DNA of 64,000 nt, taken from contig NZ_QFZQ01000001.1 of the NCBI RefSeq assembly GCF_003171675.1, positions 744,001 through 808,000 of the forward strand, read 5' to 3'. This DNA is from Reichenbachiella versicolor. Lineage in GTDB: Bacteria; Bacteroidota; Bacteroidia; Cytophagales; Cyclobacteriaceae. Position numbers and translations under genes: made by a program. The notes beneath the pieces were generated by a model. It was given only the letters and a program-made list of their open reading frames with translations, was not told where the DNA came from and did no database searches. Below, one piece after another: positions 33,195-59,266 of this stretch (within the stretch, counting starts at the first letter, position 1; the number at the start of each line of letters is the position of its first letter).

Positions 33195-33959
33195 ATGAAT
33201 TACAAAATTTTAACCGCGTTCGTATTGAGTGGTTTCATGATGTCGTGTGGAGGAGGAAAACAAGCCAAGCAAGTCGAACAAAGTCTAGATACTGAAAAAG
33301 TAGAAAATGAGGCTGTGAATACGCTTAAATCTAAATTAGAAGAACGTAAATCGACTTTTAGTCTCAAGGCCGATGAGGACACTAAAAAGGTCTACAAGGA
33401 AGGTATAGAGTCAGTAGAAAAGAGTGGGATAGTCACTTCAGCCAAGCAGGTAGGGGATAAGGCGCCAGAGTTCACCTTGAACAATGCCCTCGGTGAGCCG
33501 GTTTCTTTATCAGAATATCTCAAGAAAGGTAAAGTAGTGCTTACCTGGTATAGAGGTAACTGGTGTCCATATTGTAATCTGACATTGCATGCACTGCAGG
33601 AAGAGTTGTCTAACTTCAAAGCAAACGGTGCAAACTTGATCGCTTTGACTCCAGAGCTACCAGATCAATCGATCACTACCAAAGAAAAGCACGAATTGCA
33701 GTTCGAGGTATTAAGTGATATTGGTAATACAGTAGCCAAAGAATATGGTATAGTATTTAAACTTACTGATGAAGTAACTAAAAGATACAATATGGCCTTT
33801 GAACTGAATAAGCATAACGGAGACGAATCAAACGAGCTTCCATTAGCAGCTACCTATATCATCAGCCAAAATGGAGAAATAGAATATGCTTTCTTAGATG
33901 CTGACTATAGAAATCGCGCAGAGCCTACAGAACTAACGAAATTCTTGGAGAAGAAATAA
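33195..33959 (+). CDS. AhpC/TSA-like thioredoxin-fold lipoprotein
   Basis: 254 residues. The lipobox MMSC puts the modified Cys at 18. A helical linker (25-80) leads to a peroxiredoxin-like domain: GDKAPEFTLNNALGEPV from 87, then WYRGNWCPYC with Cys124 and Cys127. The WCPYC motif combined with TWYRG marks the peroxiredoxin-like branch rather than true AhpC. It probably reduces peroxides or disulfides in the periplasm. It is a single gene with a strong terminator. Confidence 0.88.
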   Translation: MNYKILTAFVLSGFMMSCGGGKQAKQVEQSLDTEKVENEAVNTLKSKLEERKSTFSLKADEDTKKVYKEGIESVEKSGIVTSAKQVGDKAPEFTLNNALGEPVSLSEYLKKGKVVLTWYRGNWCPYCNLTLHALQEELSNFKANGANLIALTPELPDQSITTKEKHELQFEVLSDIGNTVAKEYGIVFKLTDEVTKRYNMAFELNKHNGDESNELPLAATYIISQNGEIEYAFLDADYRNRAEPTELTKFLEKK

Positions 33960-33985
33960 GTTATTTCTCAACACTTTCGAAAACC

Positions 33986-34031
33986 AAAAGCCGATCTGGT
34001 GCATAAACTATTGCATTGGATCGGCTTTTTA
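33986..34031 (+). terminator. Terminator of the thioredoxin-fold lipoprotein gene
   Basis: AAAAGCCGATC and GGTGCA pair with TGCAT and GATCGGCTTTTT around a short loop. Confidence 0.9.
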
Positions 34032-34238
34032 TTGTTAGTTGATAAACTGCTCTCAGTCGAGCTCTCTTGACAGGTTGAATCATTGCTAATCATGATGCAT
34101 GAAAGTCGTTTCTACCAGTCTGTATTCTATAAAGGTTTAGTTGATGAAATAGAAGTTGATTCTAAGTAATACTATATAGAAAAGCAGATTATCAAAGCGC
34201 GTATCATAGAAATGAAAGAGGTTCAGATATGAATGCTG

Positions 34239-34294
34239 AAAAAAAAGAGCAGCCACGAATGTGAACTGCTCCTTTATCTAATTAACCTAACCTG
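34239..34294 (-). ncRNA. Small RNA, array copy 1
   Basis: Promoter: TTG at 34326-34328, 20-base spacer, TAGCTTTG at 34298-34305 (minus strand). Conserved tail, then stem GAGCAG/CTGCTC closed by A-U at the second pair, then eight T. The start is estimated from the box. Confidence 0.75.
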
Positions 34295-34582
34295 ATGCAA
34301 AGCTAAAATGCCTCTCTGATACTTACAATGATTTTCTAAAAAAAAAACTCAACAAAATTTAACTCTTCGCTACAAAGTAAAGTATCAGTATAAGAAGCAG
34401 TTTTAGTCGTAGTAATATATACTAGGAGAGGGGAGTCACACGACTCGTTTGATAGAGCAGTCACGTTTCCGTTAGTCATCTTATGGAAGATTAATGAATG
34501 ATAATAAAGAGTAGTAAATGTACTGTTCTAGGAAATGAGAATTACTCAAAAGGTGTGTAATAGTTCTCTATTACTATATGCA

Positions 34583-34640
34583 CAAAAAAAATAGAGCAGT
34601 CACGAATGTGAGCTGCTCCATATCTAATTAACCTAACCTG
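34583..34640 (-). ncRNA. Small RNA, array copy 2
   Basis: Promoter: TTG at 34672-34674, 20-base spacer, TATCTTTA at 34644-34651. Hairpin GAGCAG/CTGCTC with the inner CAC-GTG pairs kept; T-run TATTTTTTTT. Confidence 0.75.
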
Positions 34641-34881
34641 ATGTAAAGATAGAATGCTTCTTTTACACTCACAACGGTTGTAATTGTTTTTTGTAAAATT
34701 TAATCAGCAGCGATAGCTAAGTGGTTTGGCTGAACTTTAGGCTAGTCAAGCAATATAATGTTGAAGGTACTTTTATGTACTTAGTAAAGGAGGCCTCACT
34801 ATTGGCTGAAATCCGAAATTGAATGGTAGTTGTTGATACTTTTAAGAGAATCGCCTTAAGTAAGGCTTTTATTATAGGTGC

Positions 34882-34938
34882 AAAAAAATAGAGCAGCCAC
34901 GAATGTGAACTGCTCCATTATCTAATTAACCTAACCTG
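34882..34938 (-). ncRNA. Small RNA, array copy 3
   Basis: Promoter: TTG at 34970-34972, 20-base spacer of unrelated sequence, TACCTTCG at 34942-34949. Hairpin GAGCAG/CTGCTC, then TATTTTTTT. Confidence 0.75.
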
Positions 34939-35076
34939 ATGCGAAGGTATTAAGATTTTCTTGTATTCCCAATGACTCGTATTGATTTTAGTAAAAAATA
35001 TTTCGTTTGTTGATCGTAATAGGTGTGATTTTGCCCGGAGAGGAGTTTGGTTTTGGTTTTGGTTTTGAAACAGTAT

Positions 35077-35131
35077 TAAAAAAAGTAGCAGCCACAAAGT
35101 GAACTGCCCAACTATCTAATTAATCTGATTT
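35077..35131 (-). ncRNA. Small RNA, array copy 4 (diverged)
   Basis: Promoter: TTG at 35163-35165, 20-base spacer, TAGCTTTG at 35135-35142. The tail has drifted (ATCAGATTAATTAGATA) and the apical loop is shortened to CAC-AAA-GTG on the plus strand, yet the stem and the T-run remain. This is the most divergent copy. Confidence 0.65.
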
Positions 35132-35292
35132 TTGCAAAGCTAAAGTTCTCTATAAATATACACAACGGTATTGTTAAATTATCTACTGTTCTATACTACA
35201 TGAAGATTGGAATTCAAATGCTAATTATTAGGGTGCTTTGTGGAGGAGAGGCTTAAAAAATGTTAGAGAATTACCTTGATGTATTATAGGTG

Positions 35293-35348
35293 AAAAAAAC
35301 AGAGCAGCCACGAATGTGAACTGCCCCATATCTAATTAACCTAACCTG
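35293..35348 (-). ncRNA. Small RNA, array copy 5
   Basis: Promoter: TTG at 35380-35382, 20-base spacer, TACCTTTG at 35352-35359. In the RNA the stem is GGGCAG/CUGCUC with G.U at the second pair; a T-run follows. Confidence 0.78.
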
Positions 35349-35507
35349 ATGCAAAGGTAAAATGTTGTTTTTACACTGACAACGGTTTTGTTCTTTTTTT
35401 AGTAAAAAATGTTAGTCTAAAACTGTACGATGAAGATTGGTGAATAGAGTGTCTATATATGAACACTATTGCTATGAGAATGGCTTTTTAATAGTCACAG
35501 CCTTGAT

Positions 35508-35564
35508 AAAAAAAATAGAGCAGCCACGAATGTGAACTGCCCCATATCTAATTAACCTAACCTG
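35508..35564 (-). ncRNA. Small RNA, array copy 6
   Basis: Promoter: TTG at 35596-35598, 20-base spacer, TACCTTTG at 35568-35575. Stem with G.U at the second pair; T-run TATTTTTTTT. Confidence 0.78.
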
Positions 35565-35723
35565 ATGCAAAGGTAGAGTGATGTTTTTACACTAACAACG
35601 GTTTTGTGATTTTTTAGTGAAAATAAATGGTTTAAAAAACCTGATATGATGGCTGATAAATGAGTGTCTAAATGGAGATGCACTTGTTAAGAAGTGAGCT
35701 TAAAGTCAGTCCTGAGATATTTG

Positions 35724-35781
35724 TAAAACAAAAGAGCAGCCACGAATGTGAACTGCCCCTTTATCTAATTAACCTAACCTG
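35724..35781 (-). ncRNA. Small RNA, array copy 7
   Basis: Promoter: TTG at 35813-35815, 20-base spacer, TAACTTCG at 35785-35792. Stem with G.U at the second pair; T-run interrupted once (TTTTGTTTT). The leader just after it shares about 40 bases with copy 8. Confidence 0.75.
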
Positions 35782-35939
35782 ATGCGAAGTTAAAATGATG
35801 TTTTTACACTAACAACGGTTTTGTTCTTTTTTAGTGAAAATAAATATGCTAAAAATCTATGGAAATGGTTAGAGAGTAATCGCCTAAATCAAAGACGTAA
35901 TTGAAGGGGGGAAGCTTAAAGTCAGTCCTGAGATATTTG

Positions 35940-35997
35940 AAAAACAAAAGGGCAGCCACGAATGTGAACTGCCCCTTTATCTAATTAACCTAACCTG
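35940..35997 (-). ncRNA. Small RNA, array copy 8
   Basis: Promoter: TATCTTCG at 36001-36008, with TTG at 36027-36029 after only 18 bases. The stem is GGGCAG/CTGCCC, a full G-C at the pair that is A-U or G.U in other copies. T-run TTTTGTTTTT. Confidence 0.75.
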
Positions 35998-36029
35998 ATG
36001 CGAAGATAAAGTGTTGCTTTATATTTCAA

Positions 36030-36564
36030 TAGCTATTTGAAATATTTTTGCAAAAATTATATTTCGAATGGTATGGTTTCAGGTGAAAACCGACTTCATT
36101 TTAAGTCTTACTCCAATTTTCTTCAATTTTTTTTGTTCGAGTCTCTACTCTGATCCTTTCTAGGAAAAGTGCTCTTTTTCAGGGAGTTATTTATTACGAA
36201 TCATCTACAATTTGACATTGCACATCATTTAATCTAATGGTTAAGGAGTATTCGTTGATTGTAAAACTCATTTATGGTGTTAGAAGATCTTATTCTACAC
36301 TTAATAGTTGTTCGAAACAGTTTTTGTTTGACTCGGTCTTATTTCATGAAAATATGTGTGATTAATGTAGAAAAATATAGTAGGAAATAGGTGGAGGGAT
36401 AATAATGCGGATATGCTCATGTGATAGGGCAAAACCTGTGTAAATACCGATTAAATCAAGAGAGTAGTAGTAGTTAACGGGCAAAGAATAGCCAACTCTT
36501 TTAGTTTTAACTCTAAGAAAGTCACCTAGGTAGGTGATGGTATTTACAAATAATCATTATTATC
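36030..36564. other. Intergenic, about 530 bases, no gene seen
   Basis: AT-rich spacer between the small-RNA array and a rightward lipoprotein gene. The only clear structure is the palindrome TCACCTAGGTAGGTGA at 36522-36537, about 30 bases before the next start codon, which could be an operator or attenuator. Confidence 0.5.
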
Positions 36565-36723
36565 ATGAAAACTTTTTTTAAATTGTTCGCAGTATTAGTT
36601 TTTCCATTTATCTGTAGCTCTTGTGCTGAAGATGAAATGCCTGTAAAGGAAGAAAAACAAAACCAAGAGGTTACTAGCCCAGAATCAGGTAGAGGAGGGG
36701 GATTGCCAGATAGTGGTATATAA
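36565..36723 (+). CDS. Very small lipoprotein
   Basis: 52 residues: a basic start (MKTFFKLF), a hydrophobic stretch, the lipobox ICSSC with the modified Cys near 20, then a hydrophilic tail of about 32 residues ending in a Gly-rich turn (GRGGGLPDSGI). After processing it would be a 33-residue lipopeptide. The good signal peptide, the ATG and a dedicated terminator 24 bases downstream support a real gene. No function can be assigned. Confidence 0.75.
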   Translation: MKTFFKLFAVLVFPFICSSCAEDEMPVKEEKQNQEVTSPESGRGGGLPDSGI

Positions 36724-36746
36724 TCCAGATAGAAAGTTTAAAGAGT

Positions 36747-36779
36747 ACTGGAAGAAATAAAGAGTTTCTTCCAGTTTTA
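36747..36779 (+). terminator. Terminator between the small lipoprotein and TPR genes
   Basis: ACTGGAAGAAA at 36747-36757 pairs perfectly with TTTCTTCCAGT at 36765-36775, then TTTAG. The T-run is short. Confidence 0.7.
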
Positions 36780-36804
36780 GATTGAGATATAAAAGATTGG
36801 TCAA

Positions 36805-38061
36805 ATGGGTCTAAAGTGGTTGACAATTTACATAATTATGTTTGCTAATATTTTATCAGTTCAAGCTGACTCTTCTTATTTTCAAAAGTTAATAAGTGAG
36901 GCTGAAGATAAAGATGTAGCGGAAATTTCGATAAAACTATTAGATGAGTATTTGTCTCAATCCCAGAATACAAATCTTAAGGAGCTTGCTGAGTTTAATT
37001 TTTTAATAGCAAAGCAGTTTTATAGGCAGAAAGAATATTTAGAAAGTTTGTCTTTTCTTCTCAAGTCAAGAGAGCAGGTTATAAAACATGGAGACCTTCG
37101 AAAACTTGAATGTGAAATAATTTATCAGTCTGCTTTGATCAATTATTTCATGAACAATTTTACAGAAGCGCAAAAACAGTTTGAGCTTGCATTATTGATT
37201 GCCAAGGAATTAAATGAAACTCGTAAAGTGATTTCATGTGTTTTTAATATTGGTTTAGCCTTCCGTAATCAAGGGAAATATGAAGCTTCGACTGAGAAGT
37301 TTTTTGAATGTCTGGAATTAGCCAAGAAGAATAATATGAGTGAAAAAATTTCTTCTTGTTTGAACGAATTAGGCTGGAATAGTGAAGATATAGGTGATTT
37401 AGAAATGGCTTCAAGGTTGTATTATGAATCAGGACAAGTTTCAGGAATCAGTCAAGAGTCTATAGCGATATCTGAATTAAATCTGGGTCATGTTAATTTG
37501 GTTCAAAATAATTACAGGAGAGCAATAGTATTGTTATTACAAGCAGAAAAGCGAATTAATGAAAATTACCTTTTTACTTATGTACCAATATTAAATAGTT
37601 TGGGTAGAAGCTATTACCATTTAAAATTGTATGATTCTGCTCTATTTCATCTCAATAAAGCATTTCACCTTAATCTTCCAGACTCTTCGAATATGGCCTA
37701 TCATCCTGCAGAGTTGAGAGAGTCTTATCAGTATCTAAGGTTGGTAGCCGAAGCAAAGGAAGGGAAGTATTTATTGACAGATCTAGGCGTGGTAGAAAAA
37801 ATGGCCGAGTATAATAGTAATCTGATGGTCAATTTGAATGATGTTGAAAAAGCTAATGCTCAGCTGATGATTCAGGACTATGAAAATGGACTGATGAATG
37901 AAAAACTTGAAAGCAATTATCTCATTTGGGTTGCCATTGCCTCTGTATTAGTGATTGCTATGTTGATTTGGGGTGTTGTGGTATACTATGCTAGAAAAAG
38001 AAAGAGAGACAGCTACAAGTCTCTACTAGATGAGATAGACCAATCATTAATCAATCATTAA
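36805..38061 (+). CDS. TPR membrane protein, copy 1
   Basis: 418 residues. A signal peptide (to about residue 22, VQAD) is followed by six or more tetratricopeptide-like helix pairs (about 30-300), including SGQVSGISQESIAISELN. A short coiled segment leads to one membrane helix near 378-400 and a basic cytoplasmic tail of only about 25 residues. In this phylum the same layout normally ends in a LuxR HTH or histidine kinase; here there is no output domain. It is closely related to the next gene, 9 bases or more downstream, so this is a tandem duplication. Confidence 0.85.
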   Translation: MGLKWLTIYIIMFANILSVQADSSYFQKLISEAEDKDVAEISIKLLDEYLSQSQNTNLKELAEFNFLIAKQFYRQKEYLESLSFLLKSREQVIKHGDLRKLECEIIYQSALINYFMNNFTEAQKQFELALLIAKELNETRKVISCVFNIGLAFRNQGKYEASTEKFFECLELAKKNNMSEKISSCLNELGWNSEDIGDLEMASRLYYESGQVSGISQESIAISELNLGHVNLVQNNYRRAIVLLLQAEKRINENYLFTYVPILNSLGRSYYHLKLYDSALFHLNKAFHLNLPDSSNMAYHPAELRESYQYLRLVAEAKEGKYLLTDLGVVEKMAEYNSNLMVNLNDVEKANAQLMIQDYENGLMNEKLESNYLIWVAIASVLVIAMLIWGVVVYYARKRKRDSYKSLLDEIDQSLINH

Positions 38062-58947: not shown

Positions 58948-59163
58948 ATTATTAGTAGATTTAATCGCTAGGTGAAACTATAGAGTTTAATCGATTATAA
59001 TTAGAGATGAGTATGAATAAAGTTGATAAATTTCCTTAGAGAAGGTAAATGAAACTTACGACTAACTCATCAGCACGAAAATAGAAAAATAATATAAAAC
59101 CTTAGTCTGGTTAATTAGGGATTATAGAAATAAGGAAGAAACGAAGGGAAAGGAAATAAAAAT

Positions 59164-59254
59164 GGCAAACCAACATCGCACCGCTACGACTATCTACCCT
59201 TGCTTCTTTCCAGACCTGGGGGAGTTCGATAGGAGCTGGTCGTATCGATTTGCC
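59164..59254 (-). ncRNA. ffs: Signal recognition particle RNA (small bacterial type)
   Basis: Read on the minus strand, the domain IV hairpin carries CAGGTCTGGAAAGAAGCA with the GGAA-type tetraloop and the asymmetric A-rich loop that bind Ffh. Outer arms pair back along the helix (GGCAAAtC...GTTTGCC; ATACGAC...GTCGTAGCG). The length of about 91-100 nt matches 4.5S RNA. A promoter box lies just upstream. Confidence 0.93.
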
Positions 59255-59258
59255 GCTG

Positions 59259-59266
59259 CAAAACTA
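59259..59266 (-). promoter_or_regulatory. ffs: -7 box of ffs (TAGTTTTG)
   Basis: TAGTTTTG on the minus strand fits TAnnTTTG and ends 4 bases before the SRP RNA helix. It gives an internal control for the promoter-to-start distance used for the small-RNA array. The -33 region (TTCGG, about 19 bases upstream) is weak. Confidence 0.7.

Follow-up and report, generated by a model that had tools for sequence, protein, structure and literature searches.

A tandem array of predicted small RNAs in Reichenbachiella versicolor and a proposed sponge for them in the 3′ UTR of a glycan-use operon

Eight short units that lie in tandem on the minus strand of a 64-kb window of the Reichenbachiella versicolor genome (the window being the whole stretch of 64,000 nucleotides that was analysed) are best read, from their sequence, as predicted small RNAs (sRNAs) of about 56–60 nt. 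Our main proposal, which we hold with moderate confidence, is that they belong to a FopS-like multicopy sRNA family, and that this family is titrated by a sponge in the 3′ UTR of a GH31–GH97–transporter operon when that operon is on. According to this scheme, every sRNA would have a sigma-ABfr-type promoter to itself; its seed would be the conserved 5′ tail, which is unpaired and about 20 nt long, the hairpin of an intrinsic terminator would form its 3′ end, and it would act in trans on other genes. The 3′ UTR of the operon would have been expanded into four tandem modules of tail-complementary sites; upon transcription of the operon, this UTR would bind and remove the sRNAs, and other genes, probably further ones for glycan use, would thereby be relieved of repression.

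Little of the post-transcriptional control in Bacteroidota has been mapped, and these bacteria are described as being without the classical sRNA chaperones (PMC11697453). An array and dozens of matching sites, neither of them found in the congeners searched, would make a clean and testable case of the joint origin of an sRNA and its titrator. If the scheme is true, it extends the trap or sponge principle to glycan use in Bacteroidota, in a genome in which no RRM-type partner was found. We found no published description of this sRNA family or of its proposed sponge in the one open-access library searched.

The array and the wider family

The first-pass annotation, which had been made from the letters alone, described eight minus-strand units, and all eight are present (Table 1). 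Each has the TTG and the TAnnTTYR box that had been claimed for it, separated by 20 bases in seven units (u2–u8) and by 18 in u1. The further suggestion that these boxes match the promoter consensus of Bacteroidota is in agreement with the published sigma-ABfr consensus, which has TTTG near −33 and TAnnTTTG near −7 (PMC7366714, excerpt). The comparison with the SRP RNA gene of the same window also holds, as that gene lies at 59159–59262 on the minus strand with TAGTTTTG just upstream. Allowing up to two mismatches, AGGTTAATTAGATA occurs 12 times in the 64-kb window (in the eight units and at four other places) against 1.4 expected, a count that was reached in none of 100 shuffles. A T-tract/A-tract is found at about −60 to −43 in most copies of the family.

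Table 1. Predicted sRNA units of the array and their promoters (positions in the window)
Unit	Feature	Position	Strand	Score (bits)
u1	sRNA unit: tail, hairpin, T-run	35940–36000	−	89.1
u1	promoter, TTG-N18-TATCTTCG	36001–36029	−	
u2	sRNA unit	35724–35784	−	86.4
u2	promoter, TTG-N20-TAACTTCG	35785–35815	−	
u3	sRNA unit	35508–35567	−	85.2
u3	promoter, TTG-N20-TACCTTTG	35568–35598	−	
u4	sRNA unit	35292–35351	−	82.6
u4	promoter, TTG-N20-TACCTTTG	35352–35382	−	
u5	sRNA unit, tail diverged, triloop	35076–35130	−	54.6
u5	promoter, TTG-N20-TAGCTTTG	35135–35165	−	
u6	sRNA unit	34881–34941	−	88.3
u6	promoter, TTG-N20-TACCTTCG	34942–34972	−	
u7	sRNA unit: bulged C; U-A replaces U·G beside apical helix	34584–34643	−	80.9
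u7	promoter, TTG-N20-TATCTTTA	34644–34674	−	
u8	sRNA unit	34237–34297	−	87.5
u8	promoter, TTG-N20-TAGCTTTG	34298–34328	−	

The claim that several spacers are unrelated in sequence while boxes and length persist stands only in part: boxes and length are kept, but 6 to 15 of the 20 spacer bases are common to the units compared (ten pairs among u2, u5, u6, u7 and u8, the lowest being u5/u6 with 6 and the highest u2/u7 with 15). Part of the likeness between units is due to duplication, since 121 nt are common to u2, u3, u4 and u7, and 108 nt to u1, u2, u6 and u8. It might be argued from these shared flanks, and from the spacing of about 216 bp between successive units from u1 to u5, which do show local duplication, that the units are what is left of a mobile element, or the outcome of neutral local duplication. 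We give this explanation next to no credence: ORFs of at least 80 aa are absent from 33,959 to 36,805, so that the array has none of transposase size; a plasmid search gave no match; one phage match (H1) was set aside as chance, being 52 nt inside a coding sequence; and dispersed copies with compensated stems occur elsewhere in the genome. The possibility of a transposon end, which had been named beforehand as a test of the sRNA reading, was thereby checked and found no support.

Two further observations concern the flanks of the units. The sequence ACCGTTGTNAGTGTAAAA around the −33 box is common to u2, u3, u4 and u7 (window 34620–35850), and is perhaps the site of a regulator or merely a sign of recent duplication. 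At 34452–34465 of the window, between u7 and u8, there is a lone extra 3′ arm of a terminator (ATAGAGCAGTCACG, plus strand) without a tail, possibly from a dead unit.

Downstream of the promoter boxes, the CATC and the conserved 19-base tail that had been ascribed to every unit are found as an exact AGGTTAGGTTAATTAGATA in seven of the eight, whereas u5 lacks the CATC and its tail has diverged. The hairpin and the T-run are confirmed; the terminator-type stem has a single bulged base, and its apical helix is 3 bp long. Seven of the eight units fold better than their shuffled sequences (z from −2.8 to −5.7), with most of the tail unpaired, and u5 folds no better than shuffles (z −0.12). Perhaps u5 is decayed or re-targeted. 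The promoter boxes, the conserved unpaired tail and the compensated terminator hairpin fit separate small transcripts, from which we infer transcription of the units, and the first-pass proposal of a multicopy sRNA family is supported to that extent.

The family is larger than the eight copies of the array. A covariance model was built from 11 copies and used to search the 5.25-Mb genome; it recovers its 11 source copies (E 3e-6 or better, the scores being high by construction), and after these no further copy, solely the 3′ UTR sites discussed below and matches at noise level (E 0.7 or worse). The 11 strong matches comprise the eight in the window, two that lie 178 bp apart on contig C13 and one on contig C16. 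At the DNA level the tail is identical in 10 of the 11 copies. In the copies outside the window, the tail is retained and the stem is replaced on both sides: the C13 pair has the stem GCGGAAG/CTTCCGC with the apical helix CTC/GAG, where the array has GGGGCAG/CTGCCC and CAC/GTG, and the C16 copy has a third type of stem with the apical helix CGC/GCG.

Over the 11 copies, 94.2% of 120 cells pair, a count that is lowered by three rows (the two from C13 and the one from C16) being one base out of register in part of the stem. The covariation score of the family stem was reached by none of 500 shuffles. Three stem pairs are changed on both sides, a number equalled in 19 of the 500; when the partner strand is slid, 39–61% of cells pair, and the slide by −1 has four pairs changed on both sides.

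The −7 box lies directly upstream of 10 of the 11 copies, and a TTG at 18–21 bases from it in nine; the second C13 copy (C13b) has no clear TTG, and the C16 copy has neither promoter box directly upstream. The latter copy is situated about 110 nt past the stop codon of rhaM, a gene for L-rhamnose mutarotase with which a run of sugar-catabolic genes ends, and, because of this position and the lack of promoter boxes directly upstream, would be a 3′-UTR-derived member of the family. A peptide-coding reading was also considered, as an ATG is present at the base of the stem in six of the 11 copies. We rejected it in view of five copies having none, of the two unlike peptides that the ATG opens (of the MxQxTFVxALFF type in four copies and MAEVLVRGFRYFF in two), and of all of these running through the T-run.

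Complementary sites in the 3′ UTR of a GH31–GH97–transporter operon

With up to three mismatches, the 19-nt tail matches the whole genome at 17 places, of which 10 are in the family, seven are in one 3′ UTR and none is elsewhere; the reversed tail, as a control, gave three matches. The seven UTR matches fall where C16 ends and C17 begins, on contigs that the first-pass annotation had not been shown. These contigs are very probably neighbours in the genome, as both ends enter one 12-bp minisatellite and their flanks continue a single repeat unit. C17 carries genes for GH31, GH97 and an MFS transporter, all directed toward C16, and a gene for a LacI-type regulator lies about 940 bp further upstream. 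From their families and spacing, the three genes probably form one operon for alpha-glucans.

Past the stop codon of the transporter gene there are four tandem units of about 570–585 bp, as judged by the spacing of terminator-like hairpins, and these appear by eye to be degenerate copies of the 3′ end of the transporter gene together with its UTR. Read in the sense of the operon, the modules contain sequence complementary to the sRNA tail. Each contains a compensated hairpin, a row of anti-tail sites and a terminator-like hairpin; between them the four modules hold 14 anti-tail sites, recurring at about 30-nt steps, and the minisatellite, which interrupts the first module and within which the assembly breaks, adds at least 22 further units that can pair with the tail. 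For the four modules, RNAalifold predicts a single hairpin, with changes on both sides in three of its 11 pairs; the row of anti-tail sites is left unpaired. Units 3 and 4 of this alignment are nearly identical, so that it amounts to roughly three rows that are independent. A model of the four modules recovers those four, and in seven congeners gives no strong match (best E 0.046). Modules 2–4 would need read-through or promoters of their own, because they sit behind terminator-like hairpins; by eye, no promoters of their own were seen. On the minus strand of C16 (L015:8350–8380), just past a neighbouring CLC channel gene, the module hairpin recurs together with a T-run, and this hairpin may be derived from a terminator.

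The strength of the predicted pairing was compared with several controls. In the sense of the mRNA, the UTR has 11 distinct sites at or below −20 kcal/mol (three on C17 and eight on C16), the best of −28.3 kcal/mol, against a best of −14.1 on the opposite strand of the C16 part and of −18.9 for 40 shuffled tails set against the UTR; 60 random 2-kb segments gave a mean of −15.0 and a minimum of −22.8 kcal/mol. Windows that reach −20 kcal/mol make up 29 of 232 in the UTR, compared with 45 of 246,528 sampled elsewhere (1.23 Mb, both strands). A lone strong duplex is uninformative, since the sampled background windows reach −24.6 kcal/mol, and it is the density of sites, not any single strong duplex, that sets the UTR apart.

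Counts of uninterrupted Watson–Crick or G·U pairing give a similar picture. Runs of at least 11 nt number 42 in 2.4 kb of UTR (22 of these are units of the minisatellite), where the sample would predict 1.4 and the other strand has two. With the minisatellite masked, 13 runs of at least 14 nt remain in the UTR and none is found on the opposite strand; the mean was 0.04 both for 150 shuffled tails (maximum 3) and for 150 random genomic 23-mers (maximum 2). When the full sRNA is cofolded with eight UTR site windows, the hairpin stays intact, the tail is paired and the net energy is −20.4 to −25.3 kcal/mol, against a mean of −5.3, a 1% tail of −11.9 and a minimum of −17.7 kcal/mol for 400 random windows. 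The minisatellite alone reaches −12.1 kcal/mol, near that 1% tail, and the tail of u5 pairs poorly (−10.1 to −14.5 kcal/mol) with the seven UTR sites tested.

Within the 18-nt core of the 14 sites, a list that is partly circular in that sites were chosen by their pairing runs (two being scored over 11 positions on account of a small insertion, and a module-2 site with a deletion left out), there are 16 changes that keep a wobble pair, no pair-breaking transition and 21 transversions. All the transversions are at core positions 1–2 and 16–18, and all 15 changes within positions 3–15 retain a G·U pair; counted once per site class, the figures become seven, none and nine.

The strand specificity of this complementarity and its tolerance of wobble bear on a reading in which the tail acts as DNA, for example as an operator that follows directly on the promoters, with the hairpins as plain terminators and no trans-acting RNA. 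The near-identity of the tail at the DNA level and the C16 copy without promoter boxes directly upstream would suit such an element. Against it stand those two features of the pairing and the units themselves, which span about 60 nt with a promoter and a terminator and enclose no gene; we regard it as very improbable.

A more serious alternative, though still an unlikely one, is that the 3′ UTR is itself the direct regulatory target, to which the sRNAs would bind and thereby alter the stability of the operon's own mRNA, in either direction, or terminate it. The same complementarity between tail and UTR would be predicted, and the sites do lie between the transporter stop codon and a terminator-like hairpin. 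On the other hand, 14 sites, repeated modules and a minisatellite exceed what one regulatory site needs, and titration would favour such numbers. We infer from this, and from the pairing described above, that the sRNAs pair with the UTR in the cell, that the effect is titration rather than regulation of the operon, and that the genes repressed lie elsewhere. A more tentative extension of the sponge proposal, which we think doubtful, is that the multicopy sRNA and the multi-module sponge act as a rheostat, in which expansion or contraction of the minisatellite would alter the number of sites and thus, heritably, the strength of the sponge; if this is true, variation in simple-sequence repeats would be connected with the titration of sRNAs. 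Our confidence in both the sponge and the rheostat is lowered by the background duplex of −24.6 kcal/mol, by the weak energy of the minisatellite and by possible distant kin in two congeners.

Distribution and candidate repressed targets

The first-pass annotation had not recognised the family, and Rfam provides no match for it either: a scan of 34100–36200 with E up to 5 gave nine sub-threshold matches, none of them to FopS. The covariance model was run against 98 genomes (its own, seven congeners and 90 others), where it matched its own genome and gave one weak match (L031 in genome G039, E 9e-4), and against 395 genomes of the class, overlapping the 98, where only its own was matched; both runs used strict filters, with 55 and 13 candidates scored per genome, respectively, which weak relatives can escape. 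With three mismatches allowed, the tail pattern gave at most three matches per congener among the eight genomes of the genus, about the control rate. In two congener loci (L042 in G005 and L044 in G007), AGGTTAGGTTAAATAGGTT, which is tail-like with three mismatches, precedes hairpins; the loci score 24.4 and 21.1 bits, respectively, and may be distant relatives of the sRNA.

In a collection of 84,980 species, the exact 18-nt tail pattern occurs in one record, a Flavobacteriales MAG (L061). At L061:7078–7134, and likewise at L031:1501–1562 in the same-family genome, a tail-like sequence apparently, as judged by eye, follows right after a stop codon and is itself followed by a terminator. The two matches could be chance or a wider 3′-UTR motif and are taken as chance; tail k-mers showed no enrichment as a general 3′-UTR element. 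A 17-nt tail pattern matched one viral contig (L062), which was set aside as it has, by eye, no hairpin of the family type, and the hairpin sequence had no match among viral contigs. Beside relatives of the adjacent AhpC/TSA-family gene, the array was absent in five loci of three genomes.

Orthologues of the transporter (68–74% identity) are found in five congeners, and two congeners have no close one. All five have, by eye, a terminator-like hairpin soon past the stop codon. In the 1,000 nt past the stop, their best duplexes with the tail are −11.5 to −17.1 kcal/mol, with no pairing run of at least 14 nt and one of at least 11 nt over all five. The sRNA and a sponge-like UTR thus occur together in one of eight species of the genus, and neither was found in the other seven; this co-occurrence is one evolutionary event and not a correlation, and rests on one species.

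Translation starts were searched for putative repressed targets. Among 938 ORFs (1.30 of 5.25 Mb), there was no clear excess of tail complementarity, 58 starts being at −12 or better compared with a mean of 39 and a maximum of 81 for shuffled tails. Nor was there an excess of complements to the 14-nt core with up to two mismatches across the genome (68, against 119 for the reversed control), and AACCTAACC-N0-30-ATG occurs 27 times, compared with 54 for its control, and 11 of the 27 are antisense to units of the family. Starts of SusC/TonB genes were rejected as weak, the best duplex being −13.2 kcal/mol among 30 of 54 matches examined (including 19 over the cut-off, with the first ATG taken as the start).

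The best candidate for a repressed target is a GH16 glycoside hydrolase gene, just before whose start the tail-complementary sequence CCTAACC is repeated (C17:199108–199170, L237, between a sulfatase gene and the GH16 gene). This stretch gives a net −19.8 kcal/mol for an 80-nt window, where the controls were shorter at 60 nt; the evidence is weak, as it is a single site picked from a genome-wide scan. The candidate suggests repression of glycan-use genes, as for FopS. Other candidates at start regions are a sulfatase-like gene (−17.7) and a gene whose start is preceded by CTAATTAACCTCACC at a distance of about 50 nt (−18.2). Separately, at position 7577 of contig C3 (L225:1509–1550), there is a 10-bp minisatellite, GGTTAGGTTG, of about four copies and apparently intergenic, the complement of which could pair with the tail.

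If these were ordinary FopS-like sRNAs that repress glycan-use genes at their translation starts, the match to the UTR would be incidental, for instance an old inverted copy. The architecture is that of FopS (PMC11697453, excerpt), and the repeats before the GH16 start would be expected. Such an account, which we think distinctly improbable, leaves aside the 30-nt steps of the sites, their maintained wobble pairing and their predicted unpaired state beside a compensated hairpin, and is not helped by the lack of clear enrichment at the 938 sampled starts. Titration by the UTR remains the reading that we prefer.

Comparison with known systems

Several paralogous sRNA genes with shared seeds are found in the LhrC set of Listeria and the Qrr set of Vibrio, and the array family is like both in being multicopy with a shared seed. 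The Rfam search matched it to neither. In LhrC there are three CU-rich motifs (PMC8383071, excerpt), unlike the tail of the array, which is GGUUAGGUUAAUUAG.

The closest described parallel that we found is FopS, a 14-member family of paralogous sRNAs in Bacteroides thetaiotaomicron, in which an unpaired 5′ seed is followed by a terminator hairpin, with canonical sigma-ABfr promoters and a context of glycan use (PMC11697453, excerpt). One member, FopS-14, is 3′-UTR-derived, the protein partner RbpB is an RRM-1 protein, and pairing takes place at susC starts (PMC11697453). As far as this account goes, the likeness extends to the multiple copies, to the unpaired seed ahead of an intrinsic terminator, to the sigma-ABfr-type promoter and to one member in a 3′ UTR. 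The differences are that the array was not matched to FopS in the Rfam scan (FopS may not be in that copy of Rfam); that, with E up to 0.001, RRM_1 (PF00076) has no match in the R. versicolor genome, where a control Bacteroides genome does match; that the tail shows no strong pairing at the 30 of 54 SusC/TonB starts examined; and that eight copies are here in one tandem array. Membership of FopS itself thus fails both on sequence, in that there is no Rfam match, and on the RRM partner.

The chb trap and the SroC sponge use one or few sites. In both, a transport or catabolic transcript titrates an sRNA by pairing, the sRNA being ChiX for the chb trap and GcvB for SroC, and SroC is itself 3′-UTR-derived (PMC8383071, excerpt). 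The 3′ UTR of the GH31–GH97–transporter operon resembles them, as they are described there, in carrying in sense the complement of an sRNA seed, its transcription being deduced from the direction of the genes. It differs from them in scale and setting: the multicopy sRNA, here of a different phylum, is confronted with four modules that hold 14 sites and, in addition, with at least 22 units of the minisatellite, and titration is what we propose.
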